Source of the DNA: Pseudobacteriovorax antillogorgiicola
Lineage (GTDB): Bacteria; Bdellovibrionota_B; Oligoflexia; Oligoflexales; RGVZ01
Direction: 5' to 3'
Assembly (NCBI GenBank): GCA_945865565.1
Contig: CAMBEK010000011.1
Coordinates: forward strand, 1 to 46,836
DNA: 46,836 nt
Notes under the pieces: generated by a model
What the model was told of the DNA's origin: nothing
What the model saw: only the letters and a program-made list of their open reading frames with translations
Databases searched by the model: none
Position numbers and translations under genes: made by a program
Part shown: piece after piece, positions 37,014 through 43,811 of the stretch
Layout: each line of letters opens with the position of its first letter
How positions within the stretch are numbered: the first letter of the stretch is position 1

Positions 37014-37044
37014 CCGGCCTTTTCCTCAAGCTTCTTGTACTTGC

Positions 37045-37050
37045 ATTATA
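37045..37050 (-). promoter_or_regulatory. -10 element upstream of the second His-rich gene
   Basis: A consensus TATAAT reads on the minus strand at 37050-37045, about 32 nt before the ATG at 37013. No good -35 box is seen at 17 nt (TCTGCC), so an activator may be needed. Confidence 0.4.
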
Positions 37051-37100
37051 AACACTAACACCTTTTCGGCAGATTCGCAGCGAGCTTAAAATCCGAGACT

Positions 37101-37871
37101 TTACGTCCCCAGGTATTTTTCAGTGATGGCCTTGTAAAACGAGGTTTCGGTGGTTGCGTTGAGGCAACGGTCAAGGGTCTCAATAAAAACCTTGGGGTTG
37201 TTGATCCTCAGTGATTTCCGGGCGATTGCGACATGATAGGAACGGGCCTTTATGACGAAGTCCAAGGCTTTGATTTTTCCATCGAAACCAAGTTCCTTCG
37301 CCTGCCACAAAACCGTTGGTACGGTATTCACAAAGGTGTCAATTTTTTCCGACACGAGCATCCGGATATTTAATTCCTGATCGTTGACCGTGGCGACCCC
37401 GCCGGTCTTCTCTCTGGCAGCCAGGTACGCCGAAAACTCCGGTGTATAACCGAGCCCCGCCAGGTTCCCCAATTTCATAGAATCGAAGTCTTTGAGTTTG
37501 GTGATCTTAGCTTTGGAATCTGCGCGAACAAAAGGGCGGTAGTCGGCCTTGAAAAGGGGCGCATCACCAAAGATTAAAAACCCTTCGCGGCGCGCATCGT
37601 GCGAATACACGTTGAGGTCCAGCGTCCCGTCTTCAAGTTCCTTGATCGCCCTTTTGATGCCGACGTGGCGAAACGATGCGCGGACTCCGGTTTTTTGAAA
37701 GCAATGCTTGAGGAGTTCCTTGCCAAAACCCTCTGGCTTCGACTTGTCTCCCGCGAAAAAGTAGGGGGGCCAATCGCTGTCGTTGACTTCGATGATTCCG
37801 TCGCCGTAGGCAGGCCAGGCAGACACGCCAACAAAGAGGAGAATTGATGCGCGCTTCACATGTTTGAGCAT
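37101..37871 (-). CDS. Periplasmic solute-binding-like protein (SBP_bac_3 type)
   Basis: 256 residues. Signal peptide 1-23 (ILLFVGVSAWPAYG). The mature chain follows the family-3 solute-binding fold: EVNDSDWPPYFFAGDKSKPEGFGKELLKHC, then IKRAIKELEDGTLDLNVY, and the hinge region LKDFDSMKLGNLAGLGY. No transporter genes are adjacent, so it may be an orphan binding or sensory protein. Ligand unknown; amino acids are typical for the family. Confidence 0.8.
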   Translation of the reverse strand: MLKHVKRASILLFVGVSAWPAYGDGIIEVNDSDWPPYFFAGDKSKPEGFGKELLKHCFQKTGVRASFRHVGIKRAIKELEDGTLDLNVYSHDARREGFLIFGDAPLFKADYRPFVRADSKAKITKLKDFDSMKLGNLAGLGYTPEFSAYLAAREKTGGVATVNDQELNIRMLVSEKIDTFVNTVPTVLWQAKELGFDGKIKALDFVIKARSYHVAIARKSLRINNPKVFIETLDRCLNATTETSFYKAITEKYLGT

Positions 37872-37985
37872 TCAGCGGGATCCTCGTAACAAGGTCTGAG
37901 CTCGGACAGCACATAAGTCACGAGCAATGTTACGATTTTTTTGCTGCGGGGTCTAATGCGTCCGCTGGACGAATTCCTTAAATTG

Positions 37986-38028
37986 GGAGTATACTCCTAA
38001 TTAAGGTATTTTTTTAGGAGTGAACTCC
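37986..38028. promoter_or_regulatory. Two GGAGT-ACTCC palindromes before the first DUF4143 gene
   Basis: GGAGTATACTCC (37986-37997) is a perfect 12-bp palindrome. GGAGTGAACTCC (38017-38028) is the same palindrome with a changed centre, and it contains the ribosome binding site AGGAG just before the GTG start. The core AGTATACT ends 34 nt before the start codon; a matching core stands 35 nt before the second DUF4143 gene. Confidence 0.55.
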
Positions 38029-39192
38029 GTGTTTAAGAGAGTCGCTAAATTCCCGAAAGTAAAAAGCTTTTTCCTTTTTGGTGCCCGTGGGACTGGAAAA
38101 AGTACGCTGCTGAAGGAAACATTTTCTGAACAGAGCACATACCGGCTTGATTTACTTCTTCCGTCGGTTGAGGAGCGGCTCGCACGCGACCCGGAGTCAC
38201 TTGTTGGTGAAATCAACGGGCTTCCAAAGCGTGTGACCACTGTCGTTCTCGATGAGATTCAAAAAGTGCCAAAACTTTTGGATGTTGTGCACTTCGTTCT
38301 TGAGAACGAGTCGAGGCCATGGAGATTCATCCTGACGGGGTCAAGCGGAAGAAAACTGAAACGCGATGGCGCCAATCTTCTTGCGGGGCGTGCCTTTGTC
38401 CGTGAGTTGTTTCCACTGGTGATTTCAGAGCTTGGCTCTGCTTTTGATTTGAATGACGCTCTCAGTTGGGGAACCCTGCCCTATATATTTTCAACAGAAG
38501 ACGTCGAAGAAAAAAATGATTACCTCTCAAGTTATGTCCGGACGTATCTGAGCGAGGAAATTCAGCGTGAACAGATTGTTCGCAATTTGGATCCTTTCCG
38601 CCGTTTTCTAGAGGTCGCTGCCCAATACAACGGAAAAATCATCAACCATTCAAATATCGCCCGGGGAATTGGCGTCGATCCGAAAACGGTCGCGTCGTAT
38701 TACTCAATTCTAGAGGATACTTTGCTGGGGCATATCGTCATGCCATTTTCATTTTCGTTTCGCAAAAAATTAATCAAATCACCAAAGTTCTATTTTTTTG
38801 ATACTGGCGTCTCGCGTGCGGCTGCCAGAATTCTTTCAGTCCGACTTGTTCCCGGTACATCTATTTATGGTCAGACTTTTGAGCAGTTTGTGATGACCCA
38901 AGCGATTCATGGGCTAAAATACGCATGTCCGGAAGCCAAGGTGTCATATTACAAAGACGAAAGTGACATAGAGGTGGATTTAGTGATCGAAAAGCCGGGT
39001 GAGCCGGTGATGTTTGTCGAAATAAAGTCGTCGTCCCAGGTGGACGAGAGCTCTATAAAAAGCATGAGAATTATCCGAAAGGATTTTCCTGATGCGAGAT
39101 TCCAGTTGTGGTCGCAAGATAAAGTGAGGCGCCTGGTCGACGGTGTCGAAGTGATTTCGTGGAACGATGGATTGCGCGGTGTGATTTGCTGA
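38029..39192 (+). CDS. AAA ATPase with DUF4143 domain (copy 1)
   Basis: 387 residues from GTG 38029, chosen because AGGAG lies 8 nt upstream; GTG 38020 lies inside that ribosome site. AAA_14 domain: Walker A GARGTGKST, Walker B VVLDEIQKVP, sensor ILTGSSGRKLKRDGANLLAG. DUF4143 domain: winged-helix-like IARGIGVDPKTVASYYSILE, then FYFFDTGVSRAA and a PD-(D/E)xK-like end, IEVDLVIEKPGEPVMFVEIK. Family members are common, often multicopy and sporadic; their role is not settled. Its 3' end is convergent with copy 2 (53 bp apart). Confidence 0.9.
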   Translation: MFKRVAKFPKVKSFFLFGARGTGKSTLLKETFSEQSTYRLDLLLPSVEERLARDPESLVGEINGLPKRVTTVVLDEIQKVPKLLDVVHFVLENESRPWRFILTGSSGRKLKRDGANLLAGRAFVRELFPLVISELGSAFDLNDALSWGTLPYIFSTEDVEEKNDYLSSYVRTYLSEEIQREQIVRNLDPFRRFLEVAAQYNGKIINHSNIARGIGVDPKTVASYYSILEDTLLGHIVMPFSFSFRKKLIKSPKFYFFDTGVSRAAARILSVRLVPGTSIYGQTFEQFVMTQAIHGLKYACPEAKVSYYKDESDIEVDLVIEKPGEPVMFVEIKSSSQVDESSIKSMRIIRKDFPDARFQLWSQDKVRRLVDGVEVISWNDGLRGVIC

Positions 39193-39245
39193 TCAGTGAG
39201 AGATTAGTGAAAGATCAGTCACTCCACGTCGTCATTCCGGGCCGA

Positions 39246-40406
39246 TCAAATCAGCTTGTCTGCCCACAGATCTGCCAAAAAAGTTTGCCAGTGCATTCTT
39301 CGGATGCCGTGGTTCACGGTCTCAAACTTGTCTTGAGACACCACCGCCAAAAAAGGAATGATTTGTTCTTCGCCAAGGCGCCGCAATCCATCAACATCGC
39401 TTGTTTGAATTTTAGTCGTTGCCTTAAATTCAAACGCGGCTTTTTTACCCACCACCAGATCAACTTCGTCACCAGAGGTCGTGCGCCAAAAATAGAGTTG
39501 ATCCTTTGTCCTTCGGTAGCTGACGTACGCCTTCACCTCCGAGATTAGATAACTCTCGAAGGCGTCGCCATACAGGGTCGAATTTCGGTCCAGGGATCGC
39601 GTCTCAGTCATGGCATGAACAACACCCATGTCGAACATGAAAAACTTAGCATGAGTGATCGCTTTTCTCTTTTTAGACAGATCCAACGGGGGAAGCATGG
39701 TGCCTATAAAAGTATCCTGCAGGATTTGATAATAGGAACGAACCGTCGGCTGAGAGATTCCAAGATCCCTGGCGAGTTTGTTCATGTTCATTACTTTTGA
39801 CTGGGAAAGTCCGGCGACCTTCAAAAAATCGGAAAATGCGACGAGATTGCGTGCCAGTCCTTCTGAAAGGATTTCCTCCTTCAAGTAAGTTGAAACATAA
39901 GCGTCCAGATCCTCGTCCGGATAGTTGGAATTATAGACAGCAGGCAATGTTCCAAACCTCAGCCTTTTGTCCAGATCAAGGTCACCAATTTCTGGATGAC
40001 AAAGGGGGAACAACTCGGCAGTCCAAGCGCGCCCTGCCAAGAAATTTACCCCCTTGGCTTTCAGAGACCGGGCGCTACTACCGGTCAATAAAAACCGCCA
40101 ACCCCTAGCCTCGATAAGCCGATGAACTTCGTTTAATAATTCTGGAATTTTCTGAATTTCATCGATAACAACCGTTGGTTTCTCAATCTTCGCATGGGCG
40201 AGAACAAAATCCTCAAGGCCTTCCGGGTGCGCCAAGAACTCCCGATACGTCCTCAACCCTAACAAATCGATGATAACTGTGGAGTCGGCCTGCAATTGCC
40301 TCCGGATCAGCGTGCTCTTACCCGTCGCCCGGGGGCCAAATAGAAAAAACGATTTTTTTTCCAGTAATTCTCGAAGATTAAGAATTCTTTGGTGGGTTTT
40401 TGCCAT
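39246..40406 (-). CDS. AAA ATPase with DUF4143 domain (copy 2)
   Basis: 386 residues. Walker A GPRATGKST, Walker B VVIDEIQKIP, sensor FLLTGSSARSLKAKGVNFLA, then RAWTAELFPL. DUF4143: LARDLGISQPTVRSYYQILQ, KFFMFDMGVVHAM, and the nuclease-like DEVDLVVGKKAAFEFK. The same order of motifs as copy 1, but clearly diverged and on the opposite strand. A 34-bp stretch near 39514-39547 has a damaged relative at 41383-41416. The promoter has the inverted repeat listed separately. Confidence 0.9.
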   Translation of the reverse strand: MAKTHQRILNLRELLEKKSFFLFGPRATGKSTLIRRQLQADSTVIIDLLGLRTYREFLAHPEGLEDFVLAHAKIEKPTVVIDEIQKIPELLNEVHRLIEARGWRFLLTGSSARSLKAKGVNFLAGRAWTAELFPLCHPEIGDLDLDKRLRFGTLPAVYNSNYPDEDLDAYVSTYLKEEILSEGLARNLVAFSDFLKVAGLSQSKVMNMNKLARDLGISQPTVRSYYQILQDTFIGTMLPPLDLSKKRKAITHAKFFMFDMGVVHAMTETRSLDRNSTLYGDAFESYLISEVKAYVSYRRTKDQLYFWRTTSGDEVDLVVGKKAAFEFKATTKIQTSDVDGLRRLGEEQIIPFLAVVSQDKFETVNHGIRRMHWQTFLADLWADKLI

Positions 40407-40440
40407 GGTGATGAGATGCCTGCGATGAACTTATTACGAG

Positions 40441-40500
40441 AGTATACTTTGAAAATGTCCCTATTTTTCAAAGTATATAATTGAAAAAAAAGTTATACAA
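40441..40500 (-). promoter_or_regulatory. Promoter and inverted repeat of DUF4143 copy 2
   Basis: On the minus strand TTGTAT (40500-40495) and TATACT (40477-40472) are 17 nt apart, a good sigma-70 promoter. The -10 box is part of a 13-bp inverted repeat (TATACTTTGAAAA at 40443-40455, TTTTCAAAGTATA at 40465-40477). The inner arm includes AGTATACT (40441-40448), the same core as before copy 1. Transcription would start within the repeat, which suits repression at the promoter. Confidence 0.55.
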
Positions 40501-40526
40501 GTGCGAGATTGCTTCACGAAATTCAC

Positions 40527-40630
40527 CGTCATTCTGGGGCCATAGGCCGAAGAATCCTTTCTTTTCCTTTGGTTTTAGAAAGGATCCTTCGCTAGCGCTC
40601 AGGATGACGGTGAACAGCTCAGGACGACAA
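40527..40630. repeat. Intergenic palindromic repeat cluster C
   Basis: A GTCATTCTGG...GAATCCTTTC arm faces a GAAAGGATCCTTCGCTAGCG...ATGACGG arm across a short spacer (about 40562-40577), giving a long imperfect hairpin, plus a decayed extra unit (CTCAGGACGAC). Same family as the clusters near 8.7 and 24.2 kb. It lies between DUF4143 copy 2 and the end of the Gly/Tyr-rich protein gene and may act as a terminator structure for the latter. Confidence 0.8.
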
Positions 40631-40636
40631 CTCCAC

Positions 40637-41290
40637 TTAGCGCCGCGTCCAATTTCCTCCACCGCGCGGGTAGTGGTAGTAACCGTATCCTGGGCGATAC
40701 CAACCCGGATAAGGCTGATTGTAGCCAGGGCCTAGTGGTGGGCCATACCAGCCATTATAGCCACCTGCGTAGCCAGGGCCGGGTCCGTAGCCAAAGCTAA
40801 ATCCGCTGCGGCCACCCCAACCGAAATAAAAACCTGGATTGCCGTATCCCCAAGCGTATCCCCCGCGATTGTATGACGGTGGATATCCACGGTTCCAACC
40901 GTAAGAGCCTGGGCCCCCACTGCGGGGTGGCTGCAGACTTTCCATCAGAGCCTGCGGTGCCATCTGAGGTTTTTCCGATTGTTTTCCCATTTGCTGGTCA
41001 GATTGTTTTCCCATCTGCTGATCCGACTCTTGGCCGACTTCGACAGCCCGCAATCCTTCGGGGACTTGGGCTTGATTCCACGCCTGCTCTGCAGACACAA
41101 CATCGACGATTTCAATCTGCACGGCGGATTCCAAAACACGAATCTCTGCCTGTTGGGATTGTGCTTGCCCTTGATCGTCAAAAGGCACACGCACGATCAC
41201 AGTTCCTCGTGATTCCAATTCTGGTGGACAGTCACCACCACTAAATCCACCAATCGCGGCCACAGCCAAATACTTGCGCAGGTATTTCAT
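40637..41290 (-). CDS. Gly/Tyr/Pro-rich exported protein
   Basis: 217 residues; AAGGAG lies 5 nt before the ATG. A short hydrophobic start (YLAVAAIGGFSGG) is a plausible signal but has no clean cleavage site. The middle is acidic and Gln-rich with a tandem (SDQQMGKQ) duplication. The last 80 residues are built of Gly/Tyr/Trp/Pro (YNRGGYAWGYGNPGFYFGWG, YHYPRGGG), resembling cell-wall or matrix-type low-complexity proteins. Function unknown. It interrupts the DUF4143 island. Confidence 0.65.
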   Translation of the reverse strand: MKYLRKYLAVAAIGGFSGGDCPPELESRGTVIVRVPFDDQGQAQSQQAEIRVLESAVQIEIVDVVSAEQAWNQAQVPEGLRAVEVGQESDQQMGKQSDQQMGKQSEKPQMAPQALMESLQPPRSGGPGSYGWNRGYPPSYNRGGYAWGYGNPGFYFGWGGRSGFSFGYGPGPGYAGGYNGWYGPPLGPGYNQPYPGWYRPGYGYYHYPRGGGNWTRR

Positions 41291-41382
41291 GCTTTCTCCT
41301 TGTTCTGGTTAAGAACCGTTGAGAACACAACTGACAAACCTGCGTGATTACAATTTTTATGCCACTCAGAAAGTCGCGCATA

Positions 41383-41416
41383 CGGTAGCTGACGTTCGCC
41401 TTCACCTCTGTGATTA
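41383..41416 (-). pseudogene. 34-bp remnant of a DUF4143 gene (minus strand)
   Basis: It matches 39514-39547 inside DUF4143 copy 2 at 31 of 34 bases, same strand. Translated it gives LITEVKANVSYR against LISEVKAYVSYR. No longer frame surrounds it, so it is the scar of a lost copy. Confidence 0.6.
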
Positions 41417-41499
41417 AAACTTTGATCTATCTAATCCGGAGTAGTTTCGCGTTTTCTCGCGACATTTCACGAGAGTGGTGCGGAAAAATAAAAAGACAG

Positions 41500-41797
41500 C
41501 TTAACATATCGGAATTACTAAAAAACTTCGCGTTTCCTTTCGACTGCGGAGTGACCAACGCCCTCAACAACATCACCCATGTCGATGAGGGCACGGAACA
41601 ATTTGGATGGCAAAGTCGCCATCGAGGTCAAGGCCGCAAAAAAGGTTTCGGATCGCGACCACAAGGGTTTGCGCGCCTTGTCGGAAGAGGCCGTCGACTG
41701 GCAACGCATGATCGTGGTGTCACGCGACAGGACTCCGATGAAGTATCCCAGTGGCATTGAGCACCTCTACTGGGAGGACTTCTTGCGGCATGGTTAA
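41500..41797 (+). pseudogene. Frameshifted C-terminal remnant of a DUF4143 gene (plus strand)
   Basis: Two frames together give the end of a DUF4143 protein. The first encodes FPFDCGVTNALNNITHVDEG, matching the FFDxGVxxAL motif of the intact copies. The second, after a shift near 41600, encodes GKVAIEVKAAKKVSDRDHKG, then LRALSEE and IEHLYWEDFLRHG, the family's usual C-terminus. The segment between the two motifs is much shorter than in intact genes, so there is a deletion as well as a frameshift. No ATPase half remains. Confidence 0.7.
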
Positions 41798-41807
41798 TGG
41801 TCAGCGG

Positions 41808-43028
41808 TTACAGCATCCCGAATGGTAGGTGCAGTATATTTTTATCCATCCAAAAACATTCTTCTGAAAGCGATATGAGAATGCCAAATCTCGTTTGCGG
41901 ATAGGCCTCAATAAATGCACGAATACCGGTAAGATCATCGCCATTAGGCTTTGATGTATGTTTTATTTCGACTGGGATGGGATCGTCAAAGGTATTCTCA
42001 ATCACGCAGTCGACTTCGCAGTCTTCATTTTGCCGCCAATAAAAAATATTTTTATCGCGACCAATGGTCGATCGAATTGCGTTTAATACTGCGGTCTCGA
42101 AAAGCGCACCTTTTAGGGGACTGACGTCAATTTGCCTGGATTGTTCGTAACCCAACAGGCTAGCCTGGAGGCCGCAATCGATAAGGACCACTTTTGGTAA
42201 TTTAGATTCGCGTTTACCCATTTTTCTTGAGTAGCCTGGAATTTTCCACATTAGATAGCTTGCTTCCAATACAGATTGCCATTCGCTTAGGGTGCTTTGT
42301 CTCAGTCCTATATTGCGGCCAATTTCTGACAAATTAAATGTTTTTGAAGAATAGATGGCGAGAGTTCGTAGAAACTTTTCAAGGCTACCAAGATCTTTGA
42401 TGGTTGAAATGTCTCGGACGTCCTTGGTAACGAACGTTAATACATAGTCGCGAAGTCTTTGTGAGGCTGCGGTTTCGGTTTCGCTGATGTCTCGCAAAGC
42501 CATCGCGGGAAAGCCTCCGCGTAACATAGATTCATTGGGTGGGTAAGGTAACGATGCCTTGGATCCGATCGGCGGTGCTTGGAACAAGGTGTCCAGATCT
42601 GTCACGCACTCGCTTCTTTGAGTGATCTCCGAAGGAGTAAATGGAAGTAGTTCTAGAATTCCAATTCGTCCCGCAAGCGACTCGCTGACATTCGCCATTA
42701 ACTTGAATGGCTGCGATCCGCTCAAAAGATAAGACCCAGATTTTGATTTATTAATATCAACGTTGGACTTGATTTGAAGGAATAACTCCTTAGTTCGCTG
42801 AATCTCATCCAGAAAAACCGGTGGCGGGCGGTTGATCAGGAAAAGTTCGGGATCTTCCTTTGCCTGCGATATCAATTGCGGGCTGTCGAGGAGTACCCAA
42901 CGATGGTCAGGGAACGCGGTCTTTAGGAGTTCTGTCTTCCCTGTCTGTCGTGGTCCGGTGACAAGGACTACCGGATACATTTGAGCCAGTTTAAGCAATT
43001 TAGTTTGTATAAGTCTATGATAATACAT
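41808..43028 (-). CDS. AAA ATPase with DUF4143 domain (copy 3)
   Basis: 406 residues, ATG 43028. Walker A GPRQTGKT, Walker B PVFLDEIQRTKELF, sensor YLLSGSQPFKLMANVSESLA followed by GRIGILELLPF. DUF4143: IGRNIGLRQSTLSEWQSVLE, KVVLIDCGLQASLL, and the nuclease-like CEVDCVIENTFDDPIPVEIK. It is more distant from copies 1 and 2 than they are from each other, so the island holds different subfamilies. It looks more AT-rich than the core genes. A 13-bp inverted repeat stands 5 bp before the start codon. Confidence 0.9.
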   Translation of the reverse strand: MYYHRLIQTKLLKLAQMYPVVLVTGPRQTGKTELLKTAFPDHRWVLLDSPQLISQAKEDPELFLINRPPPVFLDEIQRTKELFLQIKSNVDINKSKSGSYLLSGSQPFKLMANVSESLAGRIGILELLPFTPSEITQRSECVTDLDTLFQAPPIGSKASLPYPPNESMLRGGFPAMALRDISETETAASQRLRDYVLTFVTKDVRDISTIKDLGSLEKFLRTLAIYSSKTFNLSEIGRNIGLRQSTLSEWQSVLEASYLMWKIPGYSRKMGKRESKLPKVVLIDCGLQASLLGYEQSRQIDVSPLKGALFETAVLNAIRSTIGRDKNIFYWRQNEDCEVDCVIENTFDDPIPVEIKHTSKPNGDDLTGIRAFIEAYPQTRFGILISLSEECFWMDKNILHLPFGML

Positions 43029-43033
43029 AGTAA

Positions 43034-43066
43034 TTACAATCTAACGGCGCTGGCGTTAGATTGTAA
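43034..43066. promoter_or_regulatory. 13-bp inverted repeat before DUF4143 copy 3
   Basis: TTACAATCTAACG (43034-43046) and CGTTAGATTGTAA (43054-43066) are perfect inverted repeats with a 7-nt spacer. The outer arm holds a possible -10 TACAAT for the minus-strand gene. A T9 run follows on the plus strand (43071-43079), so a terminator reading is also possible, but no plus-strand gene precedes it. An operator for copy 3 seems likelier. Confidence 0.45.
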
Positions 43067-43139
43067 GATCTTTTTTTTTGGATTGAAGGGAATGGGCAGG
43101 GCGACAGACATGCGAAGCGCCTCAGTGGAGTCCGTTTTA

Positions 43140-43376
43140 AACTGCTCTACATGGCTGCGCCTGCCATCAGCCTTTCTTAAATTGGGCCAAAAACGCCCCG
43201 ATTAGCACCATTCGATTTTCATGTTTCTAATCTCGGGGGTTTCCCGGCGCCAGGCCGCGAGAAAGGGAAAGCCGCAGCCAGGGCGCGATTCAAGGGATAA
43301 AGGCAAGAGGTCCAGAAAGCCTAGGCCCTCGGGGTGCTGGTGATTGCGGCGCCAGGCGCAGCCATGTAGAGCAGTT
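43140..43376. repeat. 24-bp perfect inverted repeat pair near the RluA remnant
   Basis: Bases 43140-43163 and the complement of 43353-43376 are identical over 24 bp (core CTGCTCTACATGGCTGCGCC), 189 bp apart. The right arm marks where the RluA-type gene stops resembling its family. The interior has no gene. It could be the end of a small element, or an assembly or inversion junction. Confidence 0.7.
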
Positions 43377-43811
43377 CATGATTTTTTTGTGAGCTGACAG
43401 CATAACGCCCTTGGTGGCGCTCTCCGCGATATGATCGACCAACTGGCCGCGTGCGGCTGTCATGCGTCCCTCAATCATCGTCAGGTAAAACTTCTCGACC
43501 GTTCTCTCACGAAATGCCTCCACCAGGCGGCTCGCCGTTTTGGACGTCGTGGCGAACACCACCACGCCACTGACGGGCTGGTCGATGCGGTTGACGGGCT
43601 GCAAGAAAACATTGCCAGGCTTGTTGCGCGTCTCTTTCAGCATCGCTTTCGCGACGCCAAGGGCCGATTCGAGGCCGCGCTGCGCCGGATGATTCTCGTC
43701 ATGCTCGACAAGGATCCCCGCCGGCTTTTCGACCACGAGGCAGTGGTTGTCCTCTTGAGAAGAGTCAATTTTTTTTTCAGGGATTCCGTCATCGTAGAAC
43801 GCCCGCGTCAC
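43290..43811 (-). pseudogene. Truncated RluA-type pseudouridine synthase
   Basis: 173 residues, about 60 short of a small RluA enzyme. Recognisable: DNHCLVVEKPAGILVEHDEN, VNRIDQPVSGVVVFATTSK with the catalytic Asp, RERTVEKFYLTMIEGRMTAA and ending at SATKGVMLSAHKK. Beyond that the family's second half (the GRTHQIR region) is missing and the reading frame enters the 24-bp repeat (NCSTWLRLAP). At the front, an A9 tract (43769-43777 as T9) separates the GTG start at 43811 from an ATG in another frame: one more A would make that ATG (MTESLKK...) read into the enzyme. The GTG overlaps the stop of the upstream giant gene (GTGA). Confidence 0.7.

Follow-up and report, generated by a model that had tools for sequence, protein, structure and literature searches.

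DUF4143 ATPase genes clustered in Pseudobacteriovorax antillogorgiicola as probable one-gene mobile units carrying their own palindromes

The window analysed here is a stretch of 46,836 nucleotides from Pseudobacteriovorax antillogorgiicola (contig CAMBEK010000011.1, assembly GCA_945865565.1), and within about 5 kb of it lies an island of three genes encoding an AAA_14 ATPase domain followed by a DUF4143 domain, together with the remains of further copies (Table 1). Loci are named below as genome:contig:position, where G000 is the window's own assembly, of which about 1.8 Mb of sequence was examined, and G001, G002 and G003 are the other three genomes of the same genus. The original prediction, made from the letters alone, described three intact genes in mixed orientation, and this was confirmed, since the open reading frames (ORFs) are real and both domains pass the Pfam cut-offs in all three copies (AAA_14, E 2e-21 to 5e-21; DUF4143, E 9e-28 to 1e-35). 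It also described a frameshifted C-terminal remnant on the plus strand and a 34-bp scar related to copy 2 on the minus strand, and both were recovered by alignment. The remnant is frameshifted in its earlier part and matches DUF4143 C-termini in frame 0 over 41603-41785, with its stop codon at 41795-41797 and G002:C8:29727 as its top match (41% identity, E 2.7e-9). The scar aligns to copy 2 with a score of 53, double the maximum of 26 among 300 shuffles. The two remnants lie on opposite strands and have different nearest relatives, which makes the loss of two or more copies likely, as had been supposed. Two features were absent from that first account. Every copy in the window has its own palindrome directly upstream, and the genes stand tail-to-tail: the stop codons of copies 1 and 2 are 53 bp apart, and only 10 bp separate the plus-strand remnant from copy 3.

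Table 1. Features of the DUF4143 island in the window, and palindromes of two copies elsewhere
Feature	Position	Strand	Remarks
Copy 1, AAA_14 + DUF4143 gene	38029-39192	+	Real ORF; profile matches
Copy 2, AAA_14 + DUF4143 gene	39246-40406	-	Real ORF; profile matches
Copy 3, AAA_14 + DUF4143 gene	41808-43028	-	Real ORF; profile matches; predicted PD-(D/E)XK motif intact
Copy 1 palindrome, first operator-like copy	37981-38002		AATTgGGAGTATACTCCtAATT; sequence inspection
Copy 1 second operator-like repeat (half-repeat)	38016-38028		AGGAGTGAACTCC; adjoins the start codon
Copy 2 palindrome	40443-40477		TATACTTTGAAAA...TTTTTCAAAGTATA; arms 13 bp, loop 9 bp
Copy 3 palindrome	43034-43066		TTACAATCTAACG-7-CGTTAGATTGTAA
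C-terminal remnant of a further DUF4143 gene, frameshifted	41500-41797	+	Tail toward copy 3
Scar (34 bp) left by a lost relative of copy 2	41383-41416	-	31/34 identical to 39514-39547
Copy 3 putative mobile unit, set by comparison	41808-43077	-	85% identical stretch at an unrelated site in G002:C48
Palindrome of copy G000:C24:11925			TTGACCATACTCCGGAAATGGCGTACGATTCCGGAGTATGGT; ATG inside the palindrome
Palindrome of the Thermus thermophilus HB27 copy (TT_RS11170)			CTGAATGACTATCATTCAA

The number of DUF4143 matches was 18 in G000, where they are scattered on ten contigs, 15, 57 and 3 in the three genus mates, and 1 to 20 in each of six further genomes of the family. The three window copies fall on three branches of a tree built from 111 proteins, with three separate origins. 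Local tandem duplication, which the original prediction had already judged insufficient, is ruled out by this tree, in which the copies do not form one tight clade of recent local origin. The nearest relative of copy 2 is G002:C22:3094 (71.6% DNA and 77.6% protein identity) and that of copy 3 is G002:C48:10921, and both occupy other loci of the sister genomes. Together with a copy number that varies from 3 to 57 within the genus, this agrees with the repeated gain and loss proposed at the outset. Copy 1 is closest to a syntenic gene of G001 (about 99% protein identity); a site comparable to the island was found only in that genome, where it shows copy 1 and the contig ends inside it. Copy 1 and the sequence directly before it (window 37041-39063) are about 99% identical between G000 and G001, as against only about 85% for the upstream stretch with the neighbouring solute-binding protein gene, which points to a recombination tract or a recent exchange.

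The extent of what has moved can be read from pairs of related copies at different sites. Copy 3 and its G002 relative have exactly the stretch listed in Table 1 in common, which begins at the stop codon and reaches about 11 bp past the palindrome, and their flanks are unrelated. G000:C3:130300 and G002:C1:33318 are 96.6% identical in DNA at unrelated sites, and further non-syntenic pairs reach 95.9%, 95.3%, 92.9%, 88.0%, 84.4% and lower, the homology consisting of the palindrome and the ORF; in the closest pairs (92.9-96.6% identity) the 3' boundary lies at the stop codon or at most 13 bp from it. The background DNA identity among the genus genomes is 77%, and only three segments of at least 92% occur between them, all three being DUF4143 genes and one of them (G000:C6/G001:C7) probably syntenic. 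Mutation could not have erased the likeness of the flanks and left the gene 96% identical, so the palindrome plus the ORF is evidently what moved. The shared unit is a single ORF, with no conserved second gene beside it. These comparisons of sequence show that DUF4143 genes move as one-gene units.

Similar cases exist beyond the genus. In complete plasmids of Thermus thermophilus, one and the same gene, at 96.5% identity, adjoins pxpA in strain JL-18 and an oxidoreductase fragment in HB27, the pxpA site of HB8 is without a DUF4143 gene, and in HB5018 only the first 58 and the last 9 bases of the gene are left, along with the palindrome. Insertion sequences lie nearby in HB27, and the move in Thermus may have had help. 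Protein relatives of copy 3 were found in 345 of 72,556 plasmid records and in 4 of 50,697 phage records. Plasmid carriage thus occurs, but phages are rare carriers, and no transposase was recognised within the window island; transport by known mobile elements was considered and rejected as the explanation. The island had been described at first as unlinked to known mobility genes, a description that overlooks the palindrome and ORF, which are themselves the moving unit.

Near the start of most copies in G000 lies an inverted repeat specific to that copy, which in many cases overlaps the likely -35/-10 promoter or the start codon. A palindrome score of at least 9 was reached by 45% of 71 genus copies versus 3.3% of 452 control ORFs (p 1.6e-16). 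Among 76 copies from other organisms, spread over many phyla, 34% scored at least 10, versus 7% of the ORFs next to them (p 2.5e-11). Several of the palindromes, from different phyla, have in common a GGAAT-n3-ATTCC core flanked by longer arms that vary, as judged by eye. Between copy 3 and its relative, 1 of 26 arm bases differs versus about 4 positions of the 7-bp loop (also by eye), and this combination of conserved arms and a changing loop is in keeping with an operator recognised by the winged helix of the encoded protein. The palindrome would then be the operator to which the unit's own product binds. It recurs past the stop codon in 2 of 71 palindrome-bearing copies overall. Copies L256 (Paludibacteraceae) and L305 (Bacilli) have their own palindrome again after the stop, at +28 and +4 respectively, as if it may also be a target or a second end.

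Several insertions could be resolved against empty sites. The G002:C48 unit is bounded by a perfect 42-bp duplication of the end of its host gene, placed at the host stop codon, and this sequence is single in the empty site (G000:C1:11545-11586). Comparison of G000:C24:21561 with an empty site in G003:C20 gave a 47-bp duplication that includes the host stop; its right repeat agrees with the empty site at about 45 of 47 positions and its left repeat at about 35 of 47, the left one having diverged over the distal 27 bp (by eye). The left repeat is the present coding 3' end of the host gene, still open to the stop, and the right repeat is noncoding. G001:C2:155252 showed a 23-bp duplication relative to the empty site of G000, and G003:C29:11341, as compared with G000:C3, showed none: here 10 bp near the host-gene end were replaced and the target supplies the stop codon of the element. 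G002:C1:18306 and G002:C8:70318 join host genes at stop codons. The resolved insertions are located at host-gene 3' ends or near them.

Flanking direct repeats with a score of at least 15 were found for 7 of 71 intact genus copies versus 1 of 441 other ORFs, and that single control ORF adjoins a DUF4143 gene; 2 of 300 mismatched control pairs also scored high (45 and 17). A perfect 34-bp flanking repeat was also found among the genus copies. In other phyla, repeats scoring at least 19 flanked 12 of 74 copies, and the controls gave 0 of 400 for mismatched pairs and 2 of 154 for neighbouring ORFs. Some of these twelve are weaker evidence: in L256 and L305 the repeat is the palindrome itself, and in L263, L273, L284 and L314 it may be a dispersed intergenic repeat. 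One Legionellaceae genome has a 24-bp repeat across the stop codon of an upstream ORF ending in PRTPGNASF, which we take to be AsnS or an AsnS-like protein. For the Bacteroidales insertion L310, no empty site was found among relatives. The downstream neighbour is convergent, that is tail-to-tail, for 44 of 62 copies (71%) versus 487 of 1386 other genes (35%; p 2.4e-8), and an orientation bias was absent among the upstream neighbours. The island, where copies 1 and 2 and likewise the remnant and copy 3 stand tail-to-tail, is explained by landing at 3' ends, those of further DUF4143 genes among them. As regards a single target of the homing type, related copies occupy unrelated targets, and any shared target may be a short or structural one. 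The window island is likely to consist of three successive arrivals and the debris of at least two earlier copies.

Close relatives seem not to coexist in one genome, as far as the compared sequences go. None of the 18 non-syntenic protein pairs with at least 60% identity lies within one genome, where 7.5 were expected from shuffled genome labels (P<1e-4), and the highest identity within a genome was 59%, though G002 has 53 copies long enough for comparison. In the absence of close relatives within one genome, the copies seem to enter from outside, and a resident unit may exclude incoming relatives.

The protein gives some indication of how this could come about. The Walker A and B motifs and the residues E311, E338-x-D340 and E354-x-K356 are invariant across nine proteins, and by alignment the C-terminal domain appears to retain an intact PD-(D/E)XK active-site motif. 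The structural model of copy 3 (predicted local distance difference test, pLDDT, 79.6) has an ATPase, lid and winged helix fold that matches 2qen (Z 16.3) and 2fna (Z 15.8), and it resembles the STAND NTPases CED-4 and plant NLRs with Z about 13 over residues 1-293. The likeness to STAND NTPases and to the archaeal Walker ATPases PABY2304 and SSO1545 thus covers the ATPase, lid and winged helix, whereas these chains leave the DUF4143 C-terminal nuclease domain unmatched, most alignments stopping near residue 293. The full-length model gave little signal on this domain. When it was modelled alone (pLDDT 67), the top Foldseek matches were mostly PD-(D/E)XK nucleases, at an E of only 6e-3, and included EndoMS, McrC, the Cas4-like ACE1, BstEII and Card1. 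A search by sequence found no solved homologue, with one weak match to a designed protein, and sensor repeats were not recognised in the protein. The models thus describe a predicted STAND-like ATPase with a winged helix and a PD-(D/E)XK nuclease domain.

All three window proteins match the PDC-S01 profiles of PADLOC strongly, with the best E of 2e-92 for copy 3. PDC-S01, an ATPase fused to a PD-(D/E)XK domain, is a PADLOC phage-defence candidate that was identified by its association with immune systems; a 2026 survey counted about 39,000 instances and placed it fourth among the most common defences of prokaryotes, with experimental antiviral validation still pending for most candidates of this kind (PMC12988326). 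In the open-access literature we found no report of PDC-S01 mobility as a palindrome and ORF unit, with target duplication or with insertion at 3' ends. Restriction-modification genes are known to insert with target duplications that are long and differ in length (Nobusato et al. 2000, as cited in PMC3031569 and PMC1643837). The DUF4143 units are similar in that a gene for a DNA-cutting enzyme is present or absent among relatives and flanked by long, variable target duplications; the 42, 47 and 23 bp found here fit this type of insertion, and the G003:C29 site has none. The DUF4143 units work like this insertion phenomenon but are not restriction-modification systems, as the unit is one gene with no methyltransferase, has its own gene-specific palindrome and inserts tail-to-tail at 3' ends. 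Tn7 likewise combines an AAA+ protein and a PD-(D/E)XK nuclease, and its insertion site is the end of a gene. Like insertion sequences and Tn7-like elements, the DUF4143 unit is compact and mobile. Unlike them, it consists of a single AAA_14 and DUF4143 ORF with no dedicated transposase and, in the genus, no paired terminal repeats, its target duplications are variable or lacking, and near-identical copies do not occur in one genome, although the assemblies may hide exact repeats.

Based on these results, we consider it probable, with some reserve, that DUF4143 genes are one-gene mobile units composed of a palindromic promoter/operator and an ORF, in which nuclease-driven insertion and exclusion would follow from the predicted protein. 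The winged helix of the unit would bind its own palindrome and repress its own promoter, and on release or some trigger the STAND-like ATPase with its PD-(D/E)XK nuclease would cut DNA. Such cutting could open new insertion sites through break repair, and it could also penalise or exclude incoming relatives, as with selfish restriction-modification genes. The further proposal of a new self-mobilising class, present in many phyla, whose product recognises its own palindromic end, inserts the palindrome and ORF at 3' ends and excludes relatives, is tentative and somewhat doubtful. Several observations weigh against the mobile-unit reading. Most copies, the three in the window included, are without target duplication, and none scoring 10 or more was found around these three. 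At G000:C24 the left repeat has diverged and the right has not, which is unexpected from simple fill-in duplication. Within the genus the palindrome is at the 5' end only, with no paired terminal repeats. The missing close paralogues are unlike a copying transposon, so copying within a genome is unsupported; none of the four genus assemblies is complete, and near-identical repeats can drop out of such assemblies, though hardly copies that are 60-90% alike. No transposition event was observed, and the unit's own nuclease would be the putative driver of insertion.

A possible alternative that carries real weight, even if we would not call it probable, is that these are passive cargo, i.e., ordinary defence genes that entered by transformation or in other vehicles and were built into the chromosome through illegitimate recombination of the host, the palindromes being only operators and the 3'-end location arising from selection for insertions that spare genes. 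The varied outcomes (no duplication, 23-47 bp at the empty sites and longer repeats elsewhere), the lack of close paralogues inside one genome, the standing of PDC-S01 as a PADLOC defence candidate associated with immune systems (PMC12988326) and the resemblance of a STAND-like ATPase with a nuclease to known sensors are all in its favour. However, the unit is cut repeatedly at the palindrome and the stop codon and its tail-to-tail placement is far above that of other genes, both of which are hard to obtain by random uptake. Homologous integration of the Campbell type, in which a circle or fragment already carrying a host-gene 3' end recombines so that the repeat is borrowed homology, seems unlikely to us. 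It would suit the left repeat of G000:C24, which differs from both the right copy and G003 over its distal part and yet keeps frame and stop, as well as repeats at host-gene ends such as the one in Legionellaceae; the perfect 42-bp and 34-bp repeats are equally compatible with duplication, and some insertions are without any repeat.

The original prediction had regarded this site as a turnover hotspot for defence or toxin-like genes, and three intact copies and two remnants of separate lineages in 5 kb would speak for it. We think a special local hotspot quite improbable, as the copies of this assembly are spread across the genome and often paired elsewhere, and landing tail-to-tail beside any gene, DUF4143 copies included, accounts for the clusters; the site could be compared in G001 alone, not in G002 or G003. 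An assembly or binning artefact is hardly credible. The assemblies are multi-contig and incomplete, but copy 1 is syntenic in G001, two other copies are syntenic in G003 with flanks 94-97% identical, and the same gene stands at different loci in the complete Thermus thermophilus plasmids. If the abundance of PDC-S01 and its association with immune systems reflect one-gene mobility and mutual exclusion, counts of the "defence" load would need rereading. The case is also an assayable example of an old question, namely how nuclease genes with no transposase insert with long target duplications.

Other repeats were observed in the window and near DUF4143 copies. A dispersed palindromic repeat, TTCACCGTCATTCTGG...CAGGATGACGGTGAA, lies at 40526-40628; it has many copies in G000 and G003, and none from G001 or G002 was among the matches listed. 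Beside the DUF4143 gene at G000:C3:130129-131361, a 156-bp direct repeat surrounds a segment of about 1 kb (G000:C3, 128690-130000) that contains an apparent fragment of an IS91-type transposase. A second dispersed repeat of the window, at 43135-43389, is frequent at the contig ends of G001; it overlaps an RluA-like pseudouridine synthase ORF (43290-43811) and seems to stand in place of its C-terminal half. This ORF is 173 aa long, compared with about 340 aa for the open frames of relatives, and is probably a pseudogene.

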